Part shown: piece after piece, positions 35,176 through 50,666 of the stretch
Layout: every line of letters begins with the position of its first letter
How positions within the stretch are numbered: the first letter of the stretch is position 1
NCBI GenBank assembly: GCA_018819925.1
Contig: JAHJPG010000014.1
Span: 1-51,693 of the forward strand
Source of the DNA: Pseudomonadota bacterium
GTDB taxonomy: Bacteria > Desulfobacterota > Desulfarculia > Desulfarculales > Desulfarculaceae
Direction of reading: 5' to 3'
Length of the DNA stretch: 51,693 nucleotides
Translations under genes and position numbers: made by a program
Notes under the pieces: model-generated
The model's database searches: none
Told to the model about the DNA's origin: nothing
What the model saw: the letters and a program-made list of their open reading frames with translations, nothing else

Positions 35176-37038
35176 CTATGCCTCGCCCCCGTCGAACCAG
35201 TGCTCCACCCGCCACACCCCGGGCTCGATTATGGTGCGGGTGTAGGGTCCCAGCTTGCCGAAGACCTTGAGCATGGCCTTGTTGGAGCCGAAGGACACCG
35301 CCCAGAAACCGGGCACCCCCTTATTTTTGGCATAAGTGGTCAGATGCTCCTGGAGCACCGAGCCCAGGCCGGTGCCCTGGAAGTGGTCATGCACGGTGTA
35401 GGCCACCTCGGCCAGGCCGGTGGGGTCGCCCAGGCTGTAGCGGCCCACTCCCATGATCTTTTCCTGACCGATGGGCCCGGTGGTGGCCACCAGGGCCATC
35501 TGCTCGGTGTAGTCCAGGTTCACCAGGTCCTGGGCCATGGTGTGGGGCAGGGCACGCACCGGGCGAAAGTAGCGGTTGAAGATGGTCTCGTCGCTGTGGG
35601 AGTAGAACAGCTCCTGCATCAGCACCTCGTCGGTGGGCTTCACCGGCCGGATATGCACCGACACCCCGCCCCTGAGGGCGGCCTCGCCCTCGGCCCACTC
35701 GGGATAGAGGTCCACGTCGGAGATGTGCAGCACCTGGTCCGGGTAGAGGTAGGCGTTGGCCTTGGCCTGCCTGAGCAGCTCTCCCCGGTGGCGGGGGTGG
35801 GCGATGTTGATCAGCGCCAGGGCCCGCTCGCGGATGGAGCGGCCGTGCAAATAGGCCACCCCGTATTCGGTGACCACGTAGTCCACGTCGCCCCGGGTGG
35901 CGATGACCCCGGCCCCCTCGGCCAGGTGGTGCACGATGCTGCTGGTGGCCCCGTCCTTGGTGGTGCTGGGCAAGACGATGATGGAGCGCCCGCCCTTGCT
36001 CATGGCCGCGCCGCGTAAAAAGTCCAGCCGCCCGCCGATGCCCGAATAGAAGTGGTAGCCCGCCGCCTCCGAGGAAACCTGGCCGGAGAGGTCCACCTGC
36101 AGGGCGCTGCCTATGGAGACCATGTTGTCGTTCTTGGCGATCTCCAGGGGGTTGTAGACCTGGTCGCTGGGCAGAAACAAAAAGTTGGGGTTCAGGTCCA
36201 CGTAGTCGTACATGGCCCGGGTGCCGATGCAAAACGAGCACACCGAGCGGCCGGGCAAGTGGTTCTTGGCCTGGTTGGTGATGACCCCCTGGTCGATGAG
36301 TTCGATCATGGCGTCGGATACCACCTCGGTGTGCAGGCCCAGTTTTCTCTTGTCCTTCAGGTGGCCCAGCACTCCATAAGGAATGTGGCCGTAGCCGATG
36401 TGCAAGGTGTCGCCGTCCTTGATAAGGCGGGCTACGCTGGCCGCGATCCTCTCGCCCACCTCGTCCAGGGGCGGGTAGGGGAACTCCATCAACTCCTGGT
36501 CCATCTCCACGAACACGTCGATGTCGCTCACCCTGAGAAAGGTGTTGCCCATGGTGCGGGGCATGCGCCGGTTCACCTGGGCTATGACCAGATCGGCGCT
36601 TTCGGCCGCCGCCCGGGACACGTCCACCCCGATGCCCAGGGATACGTAGCCGTGGCTGTCCGGCGGGCTCACCTGGATCAGGGCCACGTCCAGGTCCACT
36701 TGGTGGGAGCGGAACAGCTGCGGAATTTGGTGCATGAACACCGGGGTGTAGTCGGCCCGGGCCGAGGCCACCGCCTGGCGGGTGGAGTGGCCGATGAAAA
36801 AGGCGTTGTGGCGGAAGCGGCGGTCAAAGCGCCGGTCGGTGTACTCGGCCTTGTCCAGGGTCACGAAGTGCAATATCTGCACGTCGTGCAGCTCGTCGGC
36901 CCGCGCCATGAGGGCGCTTACCAGGCCCCGGGGCTCGGCGCAGGCCGAGCCCACGAAGACCCGCTGCCCCCGCTTGATGGGCTTCACCGCCCGGGCCGGG
37001 TCCTTCAAGCGCTTCCGGTAAATTTCCTTCCAGGACAT
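35176..37038 (-). CDS. Acetyl-CoA hydrolase/transferase fused to GNAT acetyltransferase
   Basis: A 620-residue fusion. The first 430 residues are a CoA-transferase of the acetyl-CoA hydrolase / 4-hydroxybutyrate CoA-transferase family: RGQRVFVGSACAEP, FIGHSTRQAV, VSPPDSHGYVSLGIGVD, GYGHIPYGVL, LGLHTEVVSDAMIEL (with the Glu I expect to be catalytic) and VVTEYGVAYLHGRSIRERALALINIAHP. From about residue 460 a GNAT domain follows: VHIRPVKPTDEVLM, VGRYSLGDPTGLAEVAYTVHDHFQGTGLGSVL with the acetyl-CoA-binding GTGLG, and KLGPYTR. The fusion is known in deltaproteobacteria. The ATG at 37038 is chosen because GATGAGG lies just before; an ATG 18 bases upstream has none. It may use acyl-CoA both for transfer and for lysine acetylation control, but this is inference. 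Confidence 0.93.
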   Translation of the reverse strand: MSWKEIYRKRLKDPARAVKPIKRGQRVFVGSACAEPRGLVSALMARADELHDVQILHFVTLDKAEYTDRRFDRRFRHNAFFIGHSTRQAVASARADYTPVFMHQIPQLFRSHQVDLDVALIQVSPPDSHGYVSLGIGVDVSRAAAESADLVIAQVNRRMPRTMGNTFLRVSDIDVFVEMDQELMEFPYPPLDEVGERIAASVARLIKDGDTLHIGYGHIPYGVLGHLKDKRKLGLHTEVVSDAMIELIDQGVITNQAKNHLPGRSVCSFCIGTRAMYDYVDLNPNFLFLPSDQVYNPLEIAKNDNMVSIGSALQVDLSGQVSSEAAGYHFYSGIGGRLDFLRGAAMSKGGRSIIVLPSTTKDGATSSIVHHLAEGAGVIATRGDVDYVVTEYGVAYLHGRSIRERALALINIAHPRHRGELLRQAKANAYLYPDQVLHISDVDLYPEWAEGEAALRGGVSVHIRPVKPTDEVLMQELFYSHSDETIFNRYFRPVRALPHTMAQDLVNLDYTEQMALVATTGPIGQEKIMGVGRYSLGDPTGLAEVAYTVHDHFQGTGLGSVLQEHLTTYAKNKGVPGFWAVSFGSNKAMLKVFGKLGPYTRTIIEPGVWRVEHWFDGGEA

Positions 37039-37116
37039 CGCCTCATCCCCGTGCATGATTTGTCTTTTAAAACTAGCACGCCATGGACGCGGGGTAAACG
37101 GGCGGCCATGGAAGGG

Positions 37117-37196: not shown

Positions 37197-37400
37197 TCAG
37201 TTGGAAAGCAGGCGGGCGAAAATATCCTGCAATATCTTTTTTCCCTGCTGCCAGTTGCCGGCCTTCTCCAGGGCGGCGCTCACCGCCTGGGGGCTGACCG
37301 GGTCGCTGGCCACCCAGCGGCTCTGGTCCTTGGCCACAGAGAGCCGGGCCTGTTCCCTGGCCGCCTGGGTTTGCCGGGCCGCGGCCCTAAAGCTGGACAT
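37197..37400 (-). CDS. Small protein, last gene of tail-like cassette
   Basis: A 67-residue helical, basic protein (SSFRAAARQTQAAREQARL; later WQQGKKILQDIFARLL). Start ATG at 37400 overlaps the end of the upstream gene by 14 bases; a TTG two codons earlier is possible. No homology recognised. Its overlap with the preceding tail-like gene is the reason for grouping it with the cassette. A chaperone or tail-completion role would be a guess. Confidence 0.6.
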   Translation of the reverse strand: MSSFRAAARQTQAAREQARLSVAKDQSRWVASDPVSPQAVSAALEKAGNWQQGKKILQDIFARLLSN

Positions 37401-37833
37401 CTTCAACCGCCACGATGTTCACCGGATCGCACCGGTAGGTGATGGAATCGGCCACGGCCACCTGCAACGTGCAGGGGGTGAGGGCGCTGACGGGGCTCAG
37501 GGCCCCGGCCCCGCCGGCCAGGGCCACGGTTTCGCTCTGGTTGCCCACCATGATCTCCAGGGAGGCGGGCGGGTCCTGGCCCAAAACCGTCACCGCCACC
37601 ACCGCCTGGTCCACTCCGTCGGCAATGATCTCGCTTTTGTCCGGGGTCAGCTCCACCACCGTCTTGGCCACCACCTGGCCCTCCGCCACCCGGTGGGTGT
37701 CCAGGTTCGTCTCGTCAGGCCCGTCGATGGCGTTCAGGCCCTGGGCCTGCCAGGCCATGACTTGCGGGGGGGCCAGGCAAATGCCCCGGATTTCGCCGGT
37801 AAGCGGGTCATACGCGATCATTTTGGGTTGCAT
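37387..37833 (-). CDS. Phage-tail-associated protein with Ig-like domain (cassette gene 5)
   Basis: A 148-residue protein. The N-terminal half (MIAYDPLTGEIRGICLAPPQ, VMAWQAQGLNAIDGPDETNL) followed by a beta-rich part LTPDKSEIIADGVDQAVVAVTVLG, a pattern frequent in proteins near phage tail fibres (K.eI.ADGvD.avvtV). GATAAGGAGGTTTAC gives a strong ribosome-binding site before the ATG at 37833. The gene lies 10 bp after the tail-fibre-like gene stop. No signal peptide. Function unknown; fibre assembly or decoration is plausible. Confidence 0.72.
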   Translation of the reverse strand: MQPKMIAYDPLTGEIRGICLAPPQVMAWQAQGLNAIDGPDETNLDTHRVAEGQVVAKTVVELTPDKSEIIADGVDQAVVAVTVLGQDPPASLEIMVGNQSETVALAGGAGALSPVSALTPCTLQVAVADSITYRCDPVNIVAVEDVQL

Positions 37834-37843
37834 GTAAACCTCC

Positions 37844-38812
37844 TTATCTTGCCATGCCGGCGGGCAGGGCAAAGCCTCGGCAGTGAATCTGTAGTGAGCC
37901 GCTCCCCGACCAAAAAACGTGGTAGTAAACGTTCCCCGATGCATTGGACATCATGGAAAACGGCGTGACGTATTCTCCTGGAGCGTTCTGCTTGGCGATT
38001 GCTCCAGCCGCTGACCCTTCAGTCCCATCGGAGCCCATATAGACCCAGTAGGTCTGCGCGTTGGCCTGGTTCAAATAAGCCTGCCCATACCACCAAAGAC
38101 GGCCCAGGGCGGGCAGGCCCACGCTCAGGGCAGTGGCCGTGGTGGCGGGCGAGCTGGTTGACAGCGCAAATATCGAGGTGGTGGATAGCTGGAAAATTTT
38201 GCCGTCACAGGAGAAGGCGGCCAGGCCGCCCGATCCGTCGCTGCGCATGACCCCAACCACCCGCTCCGTACCGATGTACCAGGCCTTGTAGGCGTCGCTC
38301 CATTGGGGGGTGGTGGCGTCCAGGGCGACGGCGGCCGCATCGATCTCATTCCCGGAGGCCGGCGCGTACACCTTGAGATAGAGCCAGGTGTTGGCCGCGA
38401 ACCCGCTCTGGCCGGTCTTGGTGATGGCGCCGGGGATCTCGAACAGGCTCCCGCCGATATCCAGCGCGCCGCTGCCCAGGGTGAAGGCGCTGGCCGAAGA
38501 CCAGGCGGGCAGGCAGCCGGTGATTGCCGCCGGCGCTCCGGCGCTGACTGCACCGGCCTTGGTGAGCTGGAGCACCTCCCCGCCACCGGCCCCCCGGAAA
38601 AAAAGCTCGGCCAGGCCGCCGCTTTCTTTGGTGTACAGGGCCGCCTGCCCGGCTCCGGTGTCCGGGTCCGCGCCCTGCACCACCAGGGTGGCCCGCTGGT
38701 GCAGGCCCGCGCTGTCGTGCTCGGCCAGCATCAGGCGGTTGAGGGTGTCCTCCTTGGTGGGGTGGTCCGCGCCGACCATCTCCTCGTCGTATTGGATTCT
38801 CAGGTCCGACAT
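37844..38812 (-). CDS. Tail-fibre-like protein (cassette gene 4)
   Basis: A 322-residue protein. The N-terminal third has MSDLRIQYDEEMVGADHPTKEDTLNRL and AALYTKESGGLAELFFRGAGGGEVLQLT, the 'alytkd.g.tELfyrd..G.viqlT' pattern that recurs in phage fibre and neck proteins. The rest is a Ser/Thr/Ala/Gly-rich beta-type sequence (ALSTSSPATTATALSVGLPALGRLWWYGQAYLNQ) with a C-terminal receptor-like part (VYYHVFWSGSGSLQIHCRGF). The ATG at 38812 has TAGGAG eight bases upstream, inside the stop of the previous gene. No signal peptide or membrane segment. Confidence 0.75.
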   Translation of the reverse strand: MSDLRIQYDEEMVGADHPTKEDTLNRLMLAEHDSAGLHQRATLVVQGADPDTGAGQAALYTKESGGLAELFFRGAGGGEVLQLTKAGAVSAGAPAAITGCLPAWSSASAFTLGSGALDIGGSLFEIPGAITKTGQSGFAANTWLYLKVYAPASGNEIDAAAVALDATTPQWSDAYKAWYIGTERVVGVMRSDGSGGLAAFSCDGKIFQLSTTSIFALSTSSPATTATALSVGLPALGRLWWYGQAYLNQANAQTYWVYMGSDGTEGSAAGAIAKQNAPGEYVTPFSMMSNASGNVYYHVFWSGSGSLQIHCRGFALPAGMAR

Positions 38813-38822
38813 TCTTTATCTC

Positions 38823-40028
38823 CTAGTAGTCGTTGCGGTCCCGGCCGCCGCCGGCCAACAGGCTGCCGTCGGCCAGGCCCTGCCCGTCGGCCGGGGCGGC
38901 CAGGGTTTTATAAAGGCCGCTGTCCAAGAGGGTGTAGCCCATGCCCCCGGCGTCCAGGTCCGGCTCCAGGCCCAGCACGCGCACGATCTGGTTTTTCAGC
39001 GGGCGGCCCTGGGGGTCTTGCAGCCAGGACAGGCTGATGAGCACCGCGTCGCCCTTTTCCAGGGGAAGGTTGGCCAGCGAGTTCTCCCGGCAAGAGATCA
39101 CCCGGCGGGGGCGGCCCAACAGCCCCACCAGGCGCCCGGACACGGTGCGGGCCACCGAGGGCAGGCGCACCCAGGCCAGCTCCAGGGTGGCGGAGGCCAG
39201 CCCGTGCATGCCCTGGGCCCGCAAATCCTGGCCATCCAGGCCGTCGAAGAAGTCTTCGTACTCCTGGGTGGCGAAGTTGTAGGCAAAGCGGGCCGGGGCC
39301 CGGTTGACCATCTCCGCCAGGCGGGCCTCCACGCTCACCCCGCTCAGGTCGCCCTGGCGCAGGCAGGCGGCGATTTCGCTCTCGCTTAGCGATCCGGCCC
39401 CCAGGTCCAGGAACACCTTGAGCCGCCCGGCGCCGTCGCGCCACCAGGAGCCCAGGAAGTCGGACAACAGGCCGGTGAGCAGGCTGCCCAGGGTGGCCTG
39501 CTTGCTTATCACCCCGGCGGCGGCGTAGCCCAGGGCCTCGGCCCGGGCCCTGGCCCGGCCGAAGGAGGCGCTCTCCAGTTCGTCGGGCGCGGCCCCGGCC
39601 AGGTTCAAGAAAAGGTCTCGGGCCACATCCACCGGGTTGGCTATCAGCCCGCCCTCGCCGTCGGCCCGGCCCTGGGCCCGCACGGTGATGGGCTCCAAGG
39701 ACTTGGCGTCCTCGCCAAAGGTGGCGGTGGCGATGACCCCCCGGCCCTCGAAGTCGTGGGCCAGGTCCAGGGTGTAGGCGGCAGGATCGATCACCTGGCC
39801 GCCGCCGCCGTACAGGCCCACCGCGTTGCCCGCGGCCAGGGGACGCAAGGCGTGCCCGGCCAGGGCGTAGACAAAGGCGTCCTGGTCCAGACACACCGCC
39901 GGCCACAGACCTCCGCTGCCGCCGAAGGTGAGGTCGCCGTAGACCACCGGCAGCAGGGCCCCCGGCCGGCGGGGGTTGGAATATGACCCGGCCCGCTTCA
40001 GCTCCAGGGTGGCGCCCAGGTCGATCAT
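38823..40028 (-). CDS. Tail-hub/baseplate-like protein (cassette gene 3)
   Basis: A 401-residue protein. PRRPGALLPVVYGDLTFGG resembles the 'PvvYG' entry of phage J-like tail hub proteins, and ANPVDVARDLFLNLAG the segment 'NP..i..dLL'. The middle has GSWWRDGAGRLKVFLDLGAG and a beta-rich part VNRAPARFAYNFATQEYEDFF, then GDAVLISLSWLQDPQGRPL, consistent with repeated hub domains. Its start forms TGATG with the stop of the previous gene, giving tight translational coupling; a GTG 3 bases earlier is possible. Homology is weak by eye, so the assignment rests partly on context. Confidence 0.65.
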   Translation of the reverse strand: MIDLGATLELKRAGSYSNPRRPGALLPVVYGDLTFGGSGGLWPAVCLDQDAFVYALAGHALRPLAAGNAVGLYGGGGQVIDPAAYTLDLAHDFEGRGVIATATFGEDAKSLEPITVRAQGRADGEGGLIANPVDVARDLFLNLAGAAPDELESASFGRARARAEALGYAAAGVISKQATLGSLLTGLLSDFLGSWWRDGAGRLKVFLDLGAGSLSESEIAACLRQGDLSGVSVEARLAEMVNRAPARFAYNFATQEYEDFFDGLDGQDLRAQGMHGLASATLELAWVRLPSVARTVSGRLVGLLGRPRRVISCRENSLANLPLEKGDAVLISLSWLQDPQGRPLKNQIVRVLGLEPDLDAGGMGYTLLDSGLYKTLAAPADGQGLADGSLLAGGGRDRNDY

Positions 40029-40549
40029 CACAGGGCCTGCAGGGTTAGGGTGAGCTTGTCTTCTTCCAGGCGGTAGGCGCTCACCCGGCCCCGGAAGCGG
40101 CGCAGGTAGTCCCGGGCCGGCACCTCGGGCCAGCCCACCAACAGCTCGCCCACCGCGCCCAGGATGTTTTCCCGGGCCTCCAGGCGGCTGAAGGGGCGGC
40201 TGCCCCCTTGGTTGGCCAGCACCACCCCCAGGCTGCCCGCCTCCTCTTGGCGCAGGCTGGCCAACACCTCGCCGCTTTGGGCGGTGAGGGTTTCGCGCAG
40301 GCGGCCGAAGGAAAGCACCCGGGCCCCCCGCTCCAACAGGCTCAGGCTGCCCTGGCCGGCCAGGCGGGAGCCGTCGGCAAAAAACTGGCCGTCGGCCCGG
40401 GTGGGCGCGGCCAGGCCCAGCTCGGCGTCGCCGGGGTGGCGGGCGGCGTAGACCCGCTGGCCGAAGGCGTTGACCAGGTTGAACAAGAGCACCGGCTTTT
40501 GGCCCCGCGCCTTGCGGGCTTGGTTGAACTTCTGGCTGATCTCAAACAT
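40028..40549 (-). CDS. Phage tail-associated protein (cassette gene 2)
   Basis: A 173-residue protein, MFEISQKFNQARKARGQKPV at the N-terminus, then VLLFNLVNAFGQRVYAARHP and a C-terminal VGWPEVPARDYLRRFRGRVSAYRLEEDKLTLTLQ. It has the beta-rich layout of distal-tail proteins but no motif I can name. It overlaps the previous gene by 8 bases and the next by one. The upstream part of the open frame is antisense-like and low-complexity and was left out; the ATG at 40549 starts the protein-like part. Confidence 0.62.
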   Translation of the reverse strand: MFEISQKFNQARKARGQKPVLLFNLVNAFGQRVYAARHPGDAELGLAAPTRADGQFFADGSRLAGQGSLSLLERGARVLSFGRLRETLTAQSGEVLASLRQEEAGSLGVVLANQGGSRPFSRLEARENILGAVGELLVGWPEVPARDYLRRFRGRVSAYRLEEDKLTLTLQAL

Positions 40550-42833
40550 CGGTGCGCACCACTTCCTCCAGGCGCAGGCCCAGGTCCCAGCGCCCTCCCG
40601 GGGCCTGTTGCCGGGCCAACTCCGCCCCGGGCAGGCAGTACAGGGTTTGGCCGGGGTCGTCGCTGAAGGGCGTGAAGTACAGGGGGCGCAGGCCGCCATC
40701 CCCTCCGGAGTGGGCCGAGGCCAGCATCTGCTCGAAGCTTGCGGCGTCTTCGGCGCTCAGGCGGGCGAACTCAAGCTGGTAGTAGGCGGCCAGGGCCCCG
40801 GCGCTGCCGGCCAGCTTGCCCCCGCCGCTGGCGGTGAGCTTGCGGGTGGCCACGGTGCCCCGGCCATAGCCGGCGCGGAAGCCCCGCTGGGGCTCGAAGC
40901 AGCCGCCCAGGTAGAACAGGCTGGCCCGCAGCAGGCCCTCGGGGTTGTCCGGGTCGTCCAACTCCAACCGCCAGTAGCGATAGGTTTGATCCAAAAAGCT
41001 GGTCAGGTGGGGCCGGGTGATGGCAAGGGCTTGGCTGTGGGCGGGATATTCCCAGGGGTCCATGATCGTCCGGGGATCGGCCTCCAGGTGGCTGTCCCAT
41101 ATTTTCACCCGCCCCAGGCGCATGGGGAAAACGGCCCCTAGGCCCAGGCTGATGCGCCCGGCGCTCAGGTTGAAGCTGCCCTCGTAGAGTTTTTCCGTGC
41201 CCCAGGCCTCGCCGCAACCCACCTGGAAGTCGCCGCCGCCCAGCCAGCGCAAGGCGATGGCGTAGGTTTGACCGGCCGCGAAATCCACGAAGGCGTCGGT
41301 GCGCCGCAAGCGCGACTGGTCATAGGACGACACGCGCGCGCCCAACGCGTTGCGGTAGAGGTACAGGGGAAGGAAGTCATAGCCGGACTCGCCGGAAGTG
41401 GACACCAAGCCCTGGGTGGTGTCCATGGTGAAATCGCCGTGGTCCAGGCCCGGGGTCCACTCCAGGGCCAGGCAGCCCTCGCCCCCCTCGGACATGGCCG
41501 CTTGGACGGCGGGGGTCAGGGGGAAGCTCACCTCGTCGGCGGCGCGGCTGGCCGTGCCGGCGGTGGTGGGGATGTAGGCTGTGGCCACGGAGCCCCTCTC
41601 CAGTTGCGCGCCCCAGGCATACACGCCACTGGAGCCGTCGCCCAAGTAGCTGTTGACGCCGTTAGCGGAGGCCAGGCCGAAATAAATCTGGGGCAACGTC
41701 GCCCCACTGGCCATATCGTGGGCAACCCAAATCCGATACCAATCTGTAGACCCGAGCCGCGCAATTCCGGCGTTTCCGTGCCCTTGCGTCCCTATGGCTC
41801 CCGCGCCCGACAGGTCGAAATAGGTTCTTACGATGGCATTCGCCTTGGTGCGACAGGTCAACAGGCACCAAGTGCGCCCATTGGGCCTGACGAATATGGA
41901 CCAGGCATGCACCGTGTCGTCGGCCAGGCCGGTCACGCCGGAAGTGCCGAAATAGTGCTCCCCGGAGGCGGCGGTCTCGGCCAGCAGATTGGCGGTGATT
42001 GCTCCATCGGGAGCCGCCCCGGCGGCGGTGGCCACGGCCAGGCGGTCCGTGAACCAAGGTGGGTTCTGGTCGAACTGCTCAGAGCGGGCGATCAGGTTGA
42101 CTGCCGCCGGCTGGATGGAGAGGAGCCCGTCCTCGAAACAACTCGCGCCCGCCTCGGCGTATTGCAGCACCCCGCCGCCGATGTAGGTGCGGCCGGTGGC
42201 CCGGCCGTTGGTTCCGGCCTGGCCCAGGCTGTCGATCAGTTGGCCCTGGCCGGGATCGAAGCTCCACGCCGGTTCGGGGGCCACGGGGCTGCCCTTGAGG
42301 GTGGCCGTGGCCCCCTCGCCCAGGTTGTGGTCGGCCAAGACCAGGGCCCGCACCCGCTGGGCCTGGCCCAGGTCCGCGCCGAGCCACTGCCCGGCGCACT
42401 CTTCCGAACGCCAGCAGGTGTCCCGGTCGCGGTCCATGAGCGCCTGGGGTCCCTGGCGGCCGGTGGCCAATATGCTCCAGCGGTCGCCCTTGTAAAGCTC
42501 CTGGTCCGGGCCGGGCGCCCACTTCACGCCCACCCCGCCGGCCAGGAGGGTCAGGGTGGTGGTGGTTGGCACCCCGCTTGCCTCCCAGGCCCCGGCGCTC
42601 TCGCGCTTCCAGCGGAAGGTGGCCAGGCCCACCTCCGTGCCCGCCTCCACCGAGTCGATCTCCACCACCAGCATCTGGTCCAGGTCGCCGGTATGCTCCC
42701 CGGCGGCCAGGCAGGTGGCCGAGCCCAGGGCCTCGGCCGCCGGCGAGCCCACCATGCCCGGCCGGGCCGAGGACACGCCCAGGGCCTCGGGCCCGGTGAT
42801 GAAGTTGTTGAACATAAATCGGCAAGTGCTCAT
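40542..42833 (-). CDS. Large tail protein with concanavalin-like/discoidin-like domains (cassette gene 1)
   Basis: A 763-residue protein, first gene of the cassette. The N-terminus (FMFNNFITGPEALGVSSARPGM) leads to a F5/8C-like region with ALMDRDRDTCWRSEECAGQWLGADLGQAQRVRALVLADHNLG. After that the phage-type 'carbohydrate-binding' segment NLIARSEQFDQNPPWF, VHAWSIFVRPNGRTWC, TDWYRIWVAHDMASG, and YAWGAQLERGSVATAYIPTTAG, all familiar from tail and spike proteins. The C-terminal part has AAYYQLEFARLSAEDAASFE and PLYFTPFSDDPGQTLYCLPG. The ATG at 42833 has GGAGGA upstream; the frame is open 38 codons further without homology. It probably binds surface glycans. Confidence 0.75.
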   Translation of the reverse strand: MSTCRFMFNNFITGPEALGVSSARPGMVGSPAAEALGSATCLAAGEHTGDLDQMLVVEIDSVEAGTEVGLATFRWKRESAGAWEASGVPTTTTLTLLAGGVGVKWAPGPDQELYKGDRWSILATGRQGPQALMDRDRDTCWRSEECAGQWLGADLGQAQRVRALVLADHNLGEGATATLKGSPVAPEPAWSFDPGQGQLIDSLGQAGTNGRATGRTYIGGGVLQYAEAGASCFEDGLLSIQPAAVNLIARSEQFDQNPPWFTDRLAVATAAGAAPDGAITANLLAETAASGEHYFGTSGVTGLADDTVHAWSIFVRPNGRTWCLLTCRTKANAIVRTYFDLSGAGAIGTQGHGNAGIARLGSTDWYRIWVAHDMASGATLPQIYFGLASANGVNSYLGDGSSGVYAWGAQLERGSVATAYIPTTAGTASRAADEVSFPLTPAVQAAMSEGGEGCLALEWTPGLDHGDFTMDTTQGLVSTSGESGYDFLPLYLYRNALGARVSSYDQSRLRRTDAFVDFAAGQTYAIALRWLGGGDFQVGCGEAWGTEKLYEGSFNLSAGRISLGLGAVFPMRLGRVKIWDSHLEADPRTIMDPWEYPAHSQALAITRPHLTSFLDQTYRYWRLELDDPDNPEGLLRASLFYLGGCFEPQRGFRAGYGRGTVATRKLTASGGGKLAGSAGALAAYYQLEFARLSAEDAASFEQMLASAHSGGDGGLRPLYFTPFSDDPGQTLYCLPGAELARQQAPGGRWDLGLRLEEVVRTDV

Positions 42834-43013
42834 GGGGTCCTCCGCGCATCGGGGCGATGGCCGGTTGCATCCTGGTCCCGAGCTTAGGGGCGTCGGCGGC
42901 GCGCGCCCAATGCGCCGATGCACAAAAGTATTTCCCCACAGCGCCACGGTGGTTTGCGCGGGCCGGGCGGCGGCGCTAAGATAGGTTTTTATTTGCCAAA
43001 AAGGAGCGGGTTC

Positions 43014-43265
43014 ATGGCCGGAGAAAAGGCGGTGACCATCTTCAGCACCCCCGGCTGCGGCCGCTGCCGGGCGGCCAAGGAATATTTCACGGTCCGGGGG
43101 TTCAGCATCGAGGAGGTGGACGTGAGCGCTTCCATGAGCGCCAAGCGGCGCATGGCCCGCCTGGCCCCCGGGGCCCGGGTGGTGCCGGTGATCGCCTTTG
43201 ACGACGAGGTGGAGGTGGGCTGGCGTCCCGAGTATTGGGCCAAGCGTCTGGGAGGTGCTTCATGA
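43014..43265 (+). CDS. Glutaredoxin-like protein
   Basis: An 83-residue thioredoxin-fold protein: VTIFSTPGCGRCRAAKEYF, with redox pair C15/C18 (CGRC), then FSIEEVDVSASMSAKRRMARLAPGARVVPVIAF with the cis-proline VVP, and VGWRPEYWAKRL. This is the NrdH/Grx-like uncharacterised group found in anaerobes. Start ATG at 43014 with AAGGAG 10 bases before; a start 32 codons further upstream has no family match. Its stop overlaps the pdxA start as ATGA, so the two are translationally coupled. Confidence 0.9.
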   Translation: MAGEKAVTIFSTPGCGRCRAAKEYFTVRGFSIEEVDVSASMSAKRRMARLAPGARVVPVIAFDDEVEVGWRPEYWAKRLGGAS

Positions 43266-44206
43266 AGCCGCGCATTGCCGTAACCATGGGCGACCCCGCC
43301 GGGGTGGGGCCGGAGATAGTGGCCCGCCTCTGCGCCCATCCCCCCATCCGGGACATGGCCGAGCTGGTCATCGTGGGCCAGCGGGGCCTGTTGGAGGCCG
43401 GGGCGGCAGCCTGCGGCTTGCCCGCCCCCCGGGTGGAGGTGGTGGAGACCGGCGAGGCCGCCGAGATAACTCCCGGCCAGCCCAGCCAGGCCAGCGGACG
43501 CCTGGCCGGGGCCTTCGTGGAAAAGGCCCTGGAGCTGGTGCAGGCGGGGCAGGCGGCGGCCATGGCCACCGCGCCCATCAGCAAGGAGGCCCTCAAGGCG
43601 GCGGGCTATCCCGACACCGGGCACACCACCCTTTTGGCCCGGCGCACCGGCACCGAGCGCCCGGTGATGATGCTGGCCGGCGAGCGCCTCAAGGTGGTGC
43701 TGGTCACCATCCACAAGGCCCTGCGCGAGGTGCCGGACCTGCTCACCGTGGATGGCATCGTGCATACCGCCCAGGTCACCCACGACTCCCTCAAGCGCTA
43801 CTGGGGCCTGGACGCGCCGCTCCTGGCGGTGTGCGGCCTGAATCCCCACGCCGGGGAGCACGGCCTGTTCGGCGACGAGGAGGAGCACATCATCGCCCCG
43901 GCGGTGGAAGAGCTCAAGGCCCAGGGCATTCTGGCCGAGGGCCCGCTGCCCCCGGACACCGTGTTCTGGCGGGCCACCCGGGGCCACTTCGACGCGGTGG
44001 TGTGCATGTACCACGACCAGGGGCTCATCCCCCTGAAGCTCTTGCACTTCGACGACGGGGTCAACGTGAGCCTGGGCCTGCCCATCATCCGCACCAGCGT
44101 GGACCACGGCACGGCCTACGACTTGGCCGGCACCGGCCAGGCCAACCCGGCCTCCCTGATCGCGGCGGTGAAGCTGGCCGCCTTGATGGCGGGAGCGGGG
44201 GAGTAA
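43262..44206 (+). CDS. pdxA: 4-Hydroxythreonine-4-phosphate dehydrogenase PdxA
   Basis: A 314-residue enzyme of the DXP-dependent vitamin B6 pathway: oxidises 4-phosphohydroxy-threonine, giving 3-amino-2-oxopropyl phosphate. Seen: IAVTMGDPAGVGPEIVARL, MATAPISKEALKAAGYPDTGHT, CGLNPHAGEHGLFGDEE (metal and substrate), VVCMYHDQGLIPLKLLHFDDGVNVSLGLPIIRTSVDHGTAYDLAG, the family's strongest signature, and a C-terminal helix. The ATG at 43262 overlaps the preceding glutaredoxin stop and has GGGAGG upstream. PdxA2-type relatives act on other substrates, but length and motifs match PdxA. Confidence 0.95.
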   Translation: MKPRIAVTMGDPAGVGPEIVARLCAHPPIRDMAELVIVGQRGLLEAGAAACGLPAPRVEVVETGEAAEITPGQPSQASGRLAGAFVEKALELVQAGQAAAMATAPISKEALKAAGYPDTGHTTLLARRTGTERPVMMLAGERLKVVLVTIHKALREVPDLLTVDGIVHTAQVTHDSLKRYWGLDAPLLAVCGLNPHAGEHGLFGDEEEHIIAPAVEELKAQGILAEGPLPPDTVFWRATRGHFDAVVCMYHDQGLIPLKLLHFDDGVNVSLGLPIIRTSVDHGTAYDLAGTGQANPASLIAAVKLAALMAGAGE

Positions 44207-44586: not shown

Positions 44587-46455
44587 TTAAACACTAAAAT
44601 TTGGTTCGTGTCTTTGGAGCCACAGTTCCAGAATCAGCAGTCCCCAAAGTCTGAAGCTGTGGTTCTTTCTTCCAGACATGTGCTCGTCAATGAGGCGGAC
44701 GACCGGCTTTTCCTGGAATAGGTTACGCCGCCGAATTTGTTCCGGAGCCAGGCATTGGGTCAACCGATCCGCCAAATCGTGCATCAACCATTCCTTGACC
44801 GGCATGATGAACCCCTGTTTGGGGCGGTAAACTATGTCCCGAGGCAGGTAACGCTCTGCCAGCCTTTTGAGTATGTACTTGGTCGTATTCCCGTTTTGTT
44901 TCAGATCGGGGTGTAACTTGGAGACGAAATCCACGAAACCGTGATCCAAATAGGGAACCCGCGCTTCCAGAGAATGGGCCATTGTGGCGCAATCGACTTT
45001 AGTCAGCAGATCGTCGGGCAGCCAGAGTTTCGAATCCACATACATTAAGTGATCTAGATAGTACGGGGAATCGCATTCATCATAAAAAAAAGCTGAAAAA
45101 TCTGACATTTGTAGCCGTATTTTACTTAAAAACATTTTTGAAAACATGGACGGTTTGATCGCCTGGTGAAACAGGCTGGGGATGGTGACGTATCGACGAG
45201 ATTTAGGTTGGGACAGCGCCCATAAATGCCGGTCCTTTCGCCATCGGGAGGGGAGCCTGCGAATGACGCCGGGTAGCGGCGACCAGGGTTTGGACCAAGC
45301 GGCCAATCGGGTTTCGTCGCGCAACCGCTTTCGGTAATTTCCGTAGCCGCTGAAAATTTCGTCCGCTCCTTCACCGGTCAGGACGACAGCGACATGCTTT
45401 CGCGTCTGTTTTGAGAGAAGCATGACCGGTATGGCCGCTGTATCGGCGAAAGGTTCGTCCATGATATCCATCCAGGAATCGAGACTGTCGAGCAACGTTC
45501 CGGGATCGACCATGATGGTATGATGTCGACTTCCGATATGGGCGGACACTGCTTCCGCTTCCAAGTGTTCGCTTTTGGCCCCATGGGTTTCATTGAACCC
45601 CAGATTAAAGGTTTCCACCGGTTTTTGAAGACAGTCCGTCATTACGGCGGCTATGAGGCCGGAATCAATTCCCCCGGATATGAAGGCGCCCAATGGAACG
45701 TCTGAAACCAGCATGGATTTAACGGATCTTTTCAACTCAACGTCCAAACGATCCAGGGCTTCCTCTTCCGTCCACTCATACTTGGGACAGTGTCCGGCGC
45801 GCCAGTAGGAATGGAGGGTCAACTGCTTGTTTTTGAATATCAGGTAATGCGCGGCAGGGAGCTTCTTGATGGATTTATAGATTGACAACGGGCTGGGAAT
45901 AAATTGGGATTCCAAGAATAAATTAACGGCTTCCAGATCGATTTCCCTTGAGACGCCCGGATGTTGCAGTATGGCTTTCAGTTCCGAACCGAATACGAAT
46001 ATGCGGCCGTTATCCATATAATATAATGGCTTTATGCCCATTTGATCGCGAGCGATGAAAAGCAAGGCCTTTGCATCGTCCCATATGGCAAAGCTGAACA
46101 TGCCGGAGAGGCGATCAAGCATTTTCACACCGAACTCCTCATAGGCGTGAATAAGCACTTCGGAATCGCCGTCCGTGTTGAAAGTATGCCCCGAACGGAG
46201 CAACTCATCCCTTAGCGTTTTGAAATTATATATCTCTCCATTACAGACTAGAGCGATGGATCGATCCTCGTTAAAAAGCGGCTGACGGCTGCCTTGAAGG
46301 TCGATAATGCTCAAACGGCGATGCCCCAAATGAATGGGACCTTTCGAATAATAACCTTCATCATCCGGCCCTCTGTGGGCCAGTGATGATGTCATATTCT
46401 GGATGACCCGCTCATTGGTTGGTTCAGAACTATAAAATCCGCAAATGCCACACAT
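44587..46455 (-). CDS. asnB: Asparagine synthetase B (glutamine-hydrolysing)
   Basis: A 622-residue enzyme. N-terminal glutaminase: MCGICGFYS with nucleophile Cys2, SLAHRGPDDEG, NGEIYNFK, GDSEVLIHAYEE; C-terminal synthetase: FISGGIDSGLIAAV with the SGGxDS pyrophosphate loop, VLTGEGADEIFSGYGNY, LDHLMYVDSKLWLPDDLLTKVDCATMAHSLEARVP. The start is at 46455, because Cys must follow Met; an upstream in-frame start gives a tail with no function. GC (about half) and A/T-ending codons differ strongly from neighbours. It is of the length and type often used in exopolysaccharide or O-antigen loci as well as amino-acid supply. Both flanks are IS remnants. Confidence 0.95.
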   Translation of the reverse strand: MCGICGFYSSEPTNERVIQNMTSSLAHRGPDDEGYYSKGPIHLGHRRLSIIDLQGSRQPLFNEDRSIALVCNGEIYNFKTLRDELLRSGHTFNTDGDSEVLIHAYEEFGVKMLDRLSGMFSFAIWDDAKALLFIARDQMGIKPLYYMDNGRIFVFGSELKAILQHPGVSREIDLEAVNLFLESQFIPSPLSIYKSIKKLPAAHYLIFKNKQLTLHSYWRAGHCPKYEWTEEEALDRLDVELKRSVKSMLVSDVPLGAFISGGIDSGLIAAVMTDCLQKPVETFNLGFNETHGAKSEHLEAEAVSAHIGSRHHTIMVDPGTLLDSLDSWMDIMDEPFADTAAIPVMLLSKQTRKHVAVVLTGEGADEIFSGYGNYRKRLRDETRLAAWSKPWSPLPGVIRRLPSRWRKDRHLWALSQPKSRRYVTIPSLFHQAIKPSMFSKMFLSKIRLQMSDFSAFFYDECDSPYYLDHLMYVDSKLWLPDDLLTKVDCATMAHSLEARVPYLDHGFVDFVSKLHPDLKQNGNTTKYILKRLAERYLPRDIVYRPKQGFIMPVKEWLMHDLADRLTQCLAPEQIRRRNLFQEKPVVRLIDEHMSGRKNHSFRLWGLLILELWLQRHEPNFSV

Positions 46456-46567
46456 GCCAACCTCGATTCTACTGCCGACCGACATTGCAAGTTGACTCAG
46501 TATGGGCGTCGAAAATTGACGCGCCTACCCAAATTCAGCAGCGGGTCGGGGTTCCGCCTGGTTTTTT

Positions 46568-46640
46568 TCAATAGCTACGCACCAGTTCCGCAGCCTCCTC
46601 GTGGGGCCAGGGCTGGTCGTTGGCCTCCATGACCATCCCA
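46568..46640 (-). pseudogene. 3' fragment of an interrupted host gene
   Basis: A short minus-strand frame reads DTSFGMVMEANDQPWPHEEA, then AELVRSY and stops. Its GC-rich codons match the host, not asnB. It is cut off on its 5' side exactly at the GGTGTCCC sequence that seems to be an IS end. Probably the tail of a host gene split by insertion; which gene I cannot say. Confidence 0.4.
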
Positions 46641-46922
46641 AAGGAGGTGTCCCAAAATCCCAACTTAAAAAATGGACCGGTTTAAGGGGGGCAGGTCAGT
46701 CACCTCGGACGTCTAAACCGAGATTATGCGGCAGTCGCCGCGTTTCACTCGTTTTTAGCCTTCTGACGCTCCTGACGCACTAGTTCCTTCGTTGGGCAGC
46801 CACCAAGGGCTTCTGGATCTCTCTGCCAAACCGAGTTCTCACTGAAAGCCCAGCGGTAATCGCTATCCTCCTTGTTTAGAGCACGTTACCCCTCTCGGTG
46901 ACGCAAATCAAGCGACTCCACC
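46641..46922. mobile_element. IS end and unassigned low-GC sequence
   Basis: Starts GGTGTCCCAAAATCCCAACT, then TTAAAAAATGGACCGG and a run of G: the look of a terminal sequence of an IS element, though I cannot name it. The rest has no reading frame that I believe. It lies between the gene fragment at 46568 and the IS1380-like remnant. Confidence 0.4.
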
Positions 46923-47280
46923 TCAGTCTGCGCCAAGGACCTCCCGGTACTGGTGAGCCAAGGGAAACGACGACGCCACATTCACTCACCCGCGGCGGCC
47001 ATGGTAGGAGATGCGCGAAGCCGCCTTGATGATCCGCCGAATCAACCACTCCATGGACCGTTTCACATCCTCGCCCGTGAGGTGGAACTCCCTGATCATG
47101 TGCAGCAGGTTGTAGGCCAAGGCACCCATTTTCAGCCTTGCCTGGTTGGCCTCGAGGCGATGGCAACTGGTCTTGTCCCAGCGCAGGGTGTTCTTGGCCT
47201 CCTTGATCCGGTTCTCCACGCAATGACGTCCATACGCCAACAATATAAACGGCTCGAACCACACGGCTCTTGATTTCCCC
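46923..47280 (-). pseudogene. IS1380-family transposase C-terminal remnant
   Basis: Minus-strand residues ENRIKEAKNTLRWDKTSCH, then RLEANQARLKMGALAYNLLH and KRSMEWLIRRIIKAASRISY, ending HGRRG. These are the conserved end of IS1380-type DDE transposases including the catalytic Glu region (ENRIKE). An in-frame TGA at 46986 replaces the Trp after HGRR; the same frame then continues VNVASSFPLAHQYREVLGAD to a stop at 46923. The N-terminal two-thirds is missing: the repeat element at 47281 takes its place. Confidence 0.85.
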
Positions 47281-47514
47281 CTCCAGCAATAGCCGTCATC
47301 GCGAGGAGCATCTCTGGGGAGATGCGACGTGGCGAACTTCGACTTCCCCCAGGCGGGAGGGGTTGTGGCTTGGAGGGTGGTTTGTCCTTGGCTTTCCGAC
47401 AAAGGCATGACAAGGGAAATGGAAGTTTGCCACGGCCGGGCAGACCGAACCGCCTTGTCCCTCCATGCGCTGGCCGCTGCCCGGCCTCGCAATGACAAAT
47501 CGCTATTGGCTGTA
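47281..47514 (-). repeat. Full composite inverted-repeat element, copy 3
   Basis: Begins CTCCAGCAATAGCCGTCATC and GCGAGGAGCATCTC, ends GGCCTCGCAATGAC, AAATCGCTATTGGCTG. It is the reverse orientation of copies 1 and 2 and carries the same inner parts (CTTCCCCCAGGCGGG, GTTTGCCACGGCCGGGCAG). The left end directly abuts the transposase fragment. Confidence 0.85.
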
Positions 47515-47828
47515 AAAAGGGAGGGCGGGCCCTTAGCTTCAACCTCCATCGCTCCCACGACACGATTTATTTAACAACAAACGTTGAGTAAGGCGCCTTT
47601 GTAGTCCATAATACCCCTGAGCGGCGGCGTAGCGCCCGCGCCCCCAAAATGGCCGCAACCTATTGATTTTTCTCCAAGCCGCTCTAAAATGGCCACCAAT
47701 CTCGTAAAATTTGGGGGTGCGCATCCGCCTTGGCGGCCTTAATCTTTATACATTCGCCCCGCCCAGGGGAACGGCCCCGGCGGCGGCATGTTTAATGTAA
47801 TCGCGAGGAATCGGCACAGGCCCTATAC
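47515..47828. other. Region upstream of uvrA, no gene seen
   Basis: A 314-bp gap. A few short frames exist, one of 61 codons on the minus strand, but their composition is not protein-like. TTTAATGTAATCGCGAGGAA near 47790-47810 might hold the uvrA promoter region. I see no CTG-N10-CAG-type LexA box there. Confidence 0.5.

Positions 47829-50666
<2,838 letters not shown>

Follow-up and report, generated by a model that had tools for sequence, protein, structure and literature searches.

A conserved phage-tail-tip cassette in the Desulfarculaceae as the likely adsorption tip of a dispersed gene-transfer-agent-like particle

The stretch of DNA analysed here, referred to as the window, is a contig of 51,693 nucleotides (JAHJPG010000014.1; contig C5 of the G000 assembly, which comprises 4.03 Mb in 145 contigs) from a member of the Desulfarculaceae. 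At 37197-42833 it carries an isolated cassette of six open reading frames (ORFs) resembling a phage tail tip, all on the minus strand in a single direction and with every frame intact, as an earlier note on this DNA, made from the letters alone, had described:

40542..42833, minus strand: P0001, 763 aa, Dit-like distal tail protein
40028..40549, minus strand: P0002, 173 aa, read as the N-terminal part of the tail hub
38823..40031, minus strand: P0003, 402 aa, tail hub protein
37844..38812, minus strand: P0004, 322 aa, tail fibre with a conserved anchor and a variable tip
37387..37833, minus strand: P0005, 148 aa, Ig-like accessory tip protein
37197..37406, minus strand: P0006, 69 aa, small partner with a TTG start and an internal ATG at 37400

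Neighbouring genes either overlap (P0001/P0002 by 8 bp, P0002/P0003 by 4 bp, and P0005/P0006 by 20 bp, or by 14 bp if P0006 begins at its internal ATG) or are separated by 10 bp (P0003/P0004 and P0004/P0005). The GC content at third codon positions (GC3) is 0.81-0.92 in the cassette and 0.92-0.94 in its flanks, and the coding statistics are alike. The statement in the note that GC equals that of the host is roughly right, although the cassette as a whole is somewhat richer than the window (0.691 vs 0.647).

The identity of the proteins was approached through both sequence families and predicted folds. P0001 matches phrog_5939, annotated 'tail protein' (4.7e-27), and phrog_8610 (1e-12), and combines a CBM32/F5-8C galactose-binding-like domain (about 8-190 plus 596-645) with a C-terminal tube/Dit-like ring. 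Its Pfam F5/8C matches fall under the curated cut-offs and the domain assignment rests on fold: the AlphaFold2 model matches CBM32 structures with Z 15, and the matches of the ring domain to Dit and tail-tube folds, including SPP1 Dit and the gene transfer agent (GTA) RcGTA, are weak (E>0.01). A lectin-like insert at about 200-590, modelled with low confidence, is swappable, in that orthologues measure either 356-363 aa without it or 720-1164 aa with it, and it is the only part of P0001 to find a match by tblastn in the phage collection. P0002 has no match in Pfam or PHROG and is 52% identical to a phage protein encoded directly after the tape measure. Since P0002 and P0003 homologues are joined in a single 567-aa ORF in locus L029, and the hub ORF of the phage locus L142 is, with 745 aa, long enough for both, the two are best read, from their sequences, as a split hub. 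For P0003 the structure prediction that the note had recommended returned a hub fold (AlphaFold2, pLDDT 70), matching the tail tips of Sf11 and T5 with Z 17, lambda gpJ with Z 13.8 and RcGTA 6tba_8A with Z 12.5; tblastn of P0003 against the phage collection gave no match. P0004 keeps an N-terminal anchor of ~85 aa, common to the fibres of the family and of phages at 50-75% identity over 24-103 aa, and its tip varies from genome to genome. P0005 has a weak Pfam Big_1 match, under the cut-off, and orthologues in several genomes of the genus, and weak orthologues of P0006 occur in G001, G002 and G006. The hub fold, together with the place of the tip genes in phages, immediately behind the tape measure, identifies a siphophage tail tip, and a fixed base with exchanged ends, as these sequences suggest, is the usual pattern of a receptor-binding apparatus.

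To establish how widely the cassette is kept, orthologues were surveyed in the genomes of 148 relatives, the genus sample comprising eight genomes including G000. P0003 orthologues were found in 8/8 of the genus sample and across most of the family, the majority of genomes having a single one, and the cassette orthologues, 46-79% identical, have the same flanks and intact frames over this same range. Where the flanks are readable the site adjoins PdxA and, in the genus, also the acetyl-CoA hydrolase. Outside the family, the sampled relatives yielded no hub orthologues save distant homologues in four genomes. This conservation is far beyond chance, and the cassette is real rather than a stray remnant. 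The note had named homologues confined to complete prophages, or decaying frames in relatives, as signs of a plain remnant; the homologues are instead family-wide, intact and outside prophages, and the conserved site, the intact frames and the phage-derived genes bear out its proposal of an old, domesticated tail tip. In G016 a second, more diverged tip copy (L036, contig C108; hub 39%) lies outside the usual site, with a 487-aa ORF before it that is still open where the contig ends, and probably belongs to a related prophage.

The remainder of a head and tail is encoded elsewhere in the same genomes. G000 has one orthologue each of hub, portal and capsid; exactly one portal is present in G000 and in 6/7 of the sampled congeners, with two in G007. 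The G000 portal lies on contig C49 within a head locus whose order is Mor/C-type late activator, holin-like gene, coiled-coil gene, small gene, TerS, TerL, portal, S78 protease, HK97 capsid, adaptor, neck, terminator and major tail protein, flanked in the genus, where readable, by dnaA and, at the opposite end, by QueH. The activator matches Pfam Mor (1e-14) and phrog_836 (2.8e-18); the holin-like gene is a putative reading of a short membrane protein that has no family match. Divergent from the activator is a conserved gene (L062 11264-11635 and orthologues) whose product, with a proline-rich, lipoprotein-like N-terminus and a transmembrane segment, is possibly a spanin-like lysis protein. 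A third site holds two small chaperone-like genes, present in the searched genomes with tip and portal except G000. Their PHROG support is weak (E 0.23, one member), and they are assigned as chaperones because they match the chaperone position in L142 and in the siphophage L269.

The tape measure, a lone 624-aa gene on contig C81 of G000 with orthologues in the genus, constitutes a fourth locus. It was located with a profile built from phage tape measures, has PHROG tape-measure matches and is 40% identical at its C-terminus to the tape measure of L269; a first profile, A1, gave no match in G000, and neither did PF10145, which has scattered matches in relatives. A 1002-aa coiled-coil transglycosylase beside the chaperones was rejected as a tape-measure candidate, as it occurs in G008 and G020, which are without the system, and is absent in G005. 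Incomplete copies that cover about 100-155 aa of the N-terminal end of the tape measure (L154 6712-7056 and L156 3208-6424) stand beside an intact tape measure and alternate with copies of a putatively secreted gene of ~257 aa. The search for tube and tape-measure genes proposed in the note thus found both, at other loci of the same genomes. In G005, a single contig of 4.479 Mb, the tape measure lies at 3.916, the portal at 4.112, the chaperones at 4.361 and the tip at 0.119 Mb, the four loci being spread over about 0.7 Mb. With loci hundreds of kb apart, a packaged piece of ordinary size would be too small to contain them all, and a system so dispersed would hardly propagate in one piece as an ordinary phage does. 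Nor do they resemble a complete prophage, the structural genes being split over loci with no integrase or replication genes recognised beside them.

In L269, a contig of an uncultivated siphophage (IMGVR_UViG_3300022177_000057), by contrast with the host family, the homologues from capsid through fibre are contiguous, with identities of 58% for the capsid, 49% for the adaptor, 42% for the major tail protein, 52% for P0002, 52% for P0003, 44-47% for Dit and 51% for the fibre base; the same module also holds a neck, a terminator, a chaperone, a Cys motif like that of P0007 (see below) and a tape measure. Since L269 carries these homologues side by side, the dispersed loci, judged by sequence similarity, descend from one siphophage. 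Further phage loci (L138-L142) have the tip genes following the tape measure, L142 adding homologues of the major tail protein and the chaperone, and Dit occurs in forty IMG/VR loci; such distant tip homologues reveal the ancestry of the cassette as far as similarity can trace it. A 7.6-kb IMG/VR 'viral' contig, L143, matches the head locus at 94% (capsid) and is by this measure the host-encoded head locus of a close relative, the system being binned as virus.

A bipartite promoter, TTTGYGCGC-N9-CTGGGC-N17-CTAGGCT, precedes the tip, head and chaperone loci with nearly fixed spacing (26 sites aligned). In the window it comprises:

42905..42930, minus strand: upstream half of the tip promoter, TACTTTTGTGCATCGGCGCATTGGGC, the same element being found at the other loci
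42881..42887, minus strand: -10-like half, CTAAGCT, 17 nt downstream of the upstream half

At fixed spacing, CTAAGCT aligns with CTAGGCT/CTATGCT in the tip, head and chaperone promoters, and the upstream half also stands before the tape measure in two genomes, G000 and G004. A matrix derived from tip upstream regions only placed most chaperone regions and the G000 and G004 tape-measure regions near the top of 507 genes, and the tip-derived element also precedes the head operon. When each locus in turn was left out of the training, the head sites so withheld scored 28-42 bits in 8/8 genomes, the best control reaching 13.0; the tip sites, withheld likewise, were weaker, the window site reaching 18.0 against one control at 18.5, and that of G002 was not among the matches listed. 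A pattern search of whole genomes recovered the known sites and additional ones; the other G000 matches lie inside genes wherever their surroundings were inspected (all but C3, C22, C82 and C102). In G001 a match with the -10 at the right spacing lies 31 nt before a gene, P0007, whose Cys motif has a 27-aa match (E 2.7e-5) in L269, in the interval that separates chaperone from tape measure. Since the promoter led to P0007, and P0007 has its match in the tail region of L269, the motif appears, on sequence, to predict membership of the system. In G006 a promoter match of 19-32 bits (L260 1556-2380, contig C8) precedes an ORF of 219 aa that contains the motif PPLHPNCGC and weakly matches a minor head protein (phrog_19443, E 0.006). 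The upstream half is further found ~400 nt before dnaA in five genomes of the genus:

L063 2578; L065 2937; L068 16295; L064 17123; L069 2685: dnaA-side upstream half

The stretch between this motif and dnaA contains conserved blocks and no conserved ORF, and the particle regulon may be linked to replication initiation.

The note had offered two further uses for the cassette, as a surface adhesin or as a set of receptor-binding genes used jointly with a tail apparatus at another place in the genome. While the carbohydrate-binding fold of P0001 and the isolated position of the six genes could suggest that they act alone as a cell-surface adhesin, they share their promoter with the loci of capsid, chaperones and tape measure, their proteins include hub and Dit folds, and the tip is absent where the head is absent (G008 and G012), which makes an adhesin very improbable. 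The shared receptor-binding set is borne out by the head, tube, chaperone and tape-measure loci, the shared promoter and the matching trees described next.

Close capsid orthologues were found in 17 family members among the 148 genomes, 16 of which have tip orthologues (one a fragment match only); the capsid is present and the tip absent in G014 (71% complete), and G008, G012 and G019 are without both. Within the family, the association of capsid and tip has a Fisher p of 0.0035, uncorrected for shared descent. Trees of the tip (908 sites) and the head (1224 sites) have 4/4 splits in common and are matched by a 7-taxon pdxA tree; a uvrA+pdxA tree of 6 taxa differs in one node, and a 10-taxon pdxA tree has 4/7 splits in common with the tip. 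This pattern bears on the notion of a tailocin-like headless tail. Such a tail would agree with a tip cassette standing alone in the window and with hub and Dit folds, which are common to tailocins, but head genes that co-occur with the tip in 16/17 capsid-bearing genomes and share its promoter and tree leave it hardly any likelihood.

The ratio of nonsynonymous to synonymous substitution rates (dN/dS) was calculated by NG86 and, because strong GC3 bias probably inflates the absolute values, is read only against flanking genes. In this check for purifying selection, which the note had proposed, the ratio stays under 1 in nearly all comparisons and is similar to that of the flanking genes (hub 0.34-0.58, TerL 0.10-0.35, capsid 0.18-0.38, flanking pdxA 0.22-0.44). 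One could also imagine a decaying prophage broken up by rearrangement, of which the cassette would be a functionless relic, since all parts are phage-derived, the capsid of G003 is truncated, and integrase, replication and endolysin genes were not recognised in the loci. Frames that are intact at the same sites across the family, dN/dS values like those of flanking genes, matching tip and head trees and a promoter kept at fixed spacing at separate sites nevertheless make such a relic improbable.

Drawing on gene identities, dispersal, common ancestry, co-inheritance, purifying selection and the shared promoter, all read from the DNA, we consider it likely that the cassette is the adsorption tip of a dispersed, vertically inherited GTA-like particle that stems from one siphophage with a Mu-type late activator. 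This points to a previously undescribed GTA in a family of sulfate-reducing bacteria; a literature search found no report of GTAs in Desulfarculaceae. Under this interpretation, the genes of the siphophage would have been broken up and become fixed at different places on the chromosome before the family radiated, with vertical inheritance since. The Mor/C-family activator at the dnaA-side locus would be switched on in some cells, where it, perhaps by binding directly, or a factor under its control, would turn on the shared promoter at the head, tip, chaperone and tape-measure loci. The terminase would then fill an HK97-type head with DNA, the tail would be built on the ~620 aa tape measure, and the tip encoded in the window would close the tail and bind recipient glycans, so that the particle formed could carry host DNA and deliver it.

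Several observations weigh against this reading. The G000 assembly has no chaperone locus, presumably because of a contig break; searches for the tape measure found none in G003 and G011, and its dN/dS for G000-G006 is exceptional at about 1.0; and the head locus of G003 (L067, contig C248, 11550-12137) stops after capsid residue ~198, the remainder not following, which could reflect a disruption or an assembly fault. An endolysin was not identified in the loci. The tape-measure promoter is without a clear -10, the tape measures of G001 and G006 are without a convincing motif, the motif is unlike the Mor/C dyad site, and the upstream half before dnaA means that the element is maybe not GTA-specific. 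Finally, the GTA-like particle, its DNA packaging and the transfer are predictions from the genes. The last point would also suit a domesticated particle of head and tail that serves some purpose other than DNA transfer, such as killing relatives or carrying protein, and the variable glycan-binding insert and fibre tips do have the appearance of a repertoire for targeting. The genes for terminase, portal, protease and capsid are, however, under at least as much constraint as the tail genes, although a pure killing tail would not need them, and no toxin gene was recognised in the loci; we regard such another purpose as unlikely. A bolder version of the GTA interpretation, in which the whole structural set, at five or more sites, forms one regulon under the Mu-type late activator and the promoter element before dnaA ties particle production to replication initiation, is conceivable but doubtful. 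If true, this would be a GTA with its entire structural set scattered, beyond accessory genes alone.

The immediate surroundings of the cassette are housekeeping genes at both ends, as the note had observed:

35176-37056: acetyl-CoA hydrolase and GNAT, housekeeping border of the cassette
43015-43265: glutaredoxin, border of the cassette
43262-44206: PdxA, housekeeping border block
47829-50666: UvrA, housekeeping border block

Also in keeping with the note, the ORFs of the window that were scanned outside the cassette include no capsid or further structural phage gene, only a transposase remnant at 46986-47558 (phrog_11704, 5.8e-17). It ends a stretch between PdxA and UvrA (44587-47558) in which it follows an asparagine synthase gene at 50-53% GC, and which has the look of recently acquired DNA.

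According to a review, GTAs easily escape detection, since they resemble phage remnants and their genes are spread over loci that may hold as few as one or two (PMC11841831). In the present case a cassette of six genes that could pass for such a 'remnant' opened the way to the genes of a dispersed particle kept across the family, and the shared promoter can be used to find missing parts such as P0007; the dispersed head-and-tail system as a whole lay beyond the foresight of the earlier note. If the interpretation as a GTA is true, it adds a GTA lineage in sulfate reducers and shows how far a domesticated phage can be dismantled under common control.

Phage Mu drives several late promoters with one late activator of the Mor/C family. 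The late regulation proposed here is similar in having an activator with a match to that family, but the late operons are on separate chromosomal sites and the promoter motif is different and non-dyad. Siphophage L269, as described, has contiguously what the host family has at separate chromosomal sites. Among the six criteria of the GTA definition that we used (PMC9662315), three can be recognised from sequence: the proteins are caudoviricete-derived, by similarity of terminase, portal, capsid, neck, tube, tape measure and hub; they are endogenised over multiple loci, four in G005 plus a fifth candidate (P0007) in G001; and the same flanks and agreeing tip and head trees indicate vertical inheritance and co-diversification. 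Dd1 of Desulfovibrio desulfuricans is likewise a GTA in sulfate reducers (PMC11841831), compared by description only and from a host of a different class. BhGTA/VSH-1 of Brachyspira, also likened by description only, resembles the present system as a GTA outside alphaproteobacteria with genes likely dispersed over loci, but has a 16.3 kb structural cluster and unrelated hosts (PMC9662315). RcGTA and other rhodogtaviriformids share domesticated siphovirus-like head and tail genes, vertical inheritance, several loci and a dedicated activator, and RcGTA 6tba_8A has a fold like the P0003 hub. RcGTA, however, has retained its head and tail genes in a core cluster that accessory loci supplement (PMC11841831), whereas here tube, tape measure, chaperones and tip are apart, and its regulator is GafA where the one here is of the Mor/C type.

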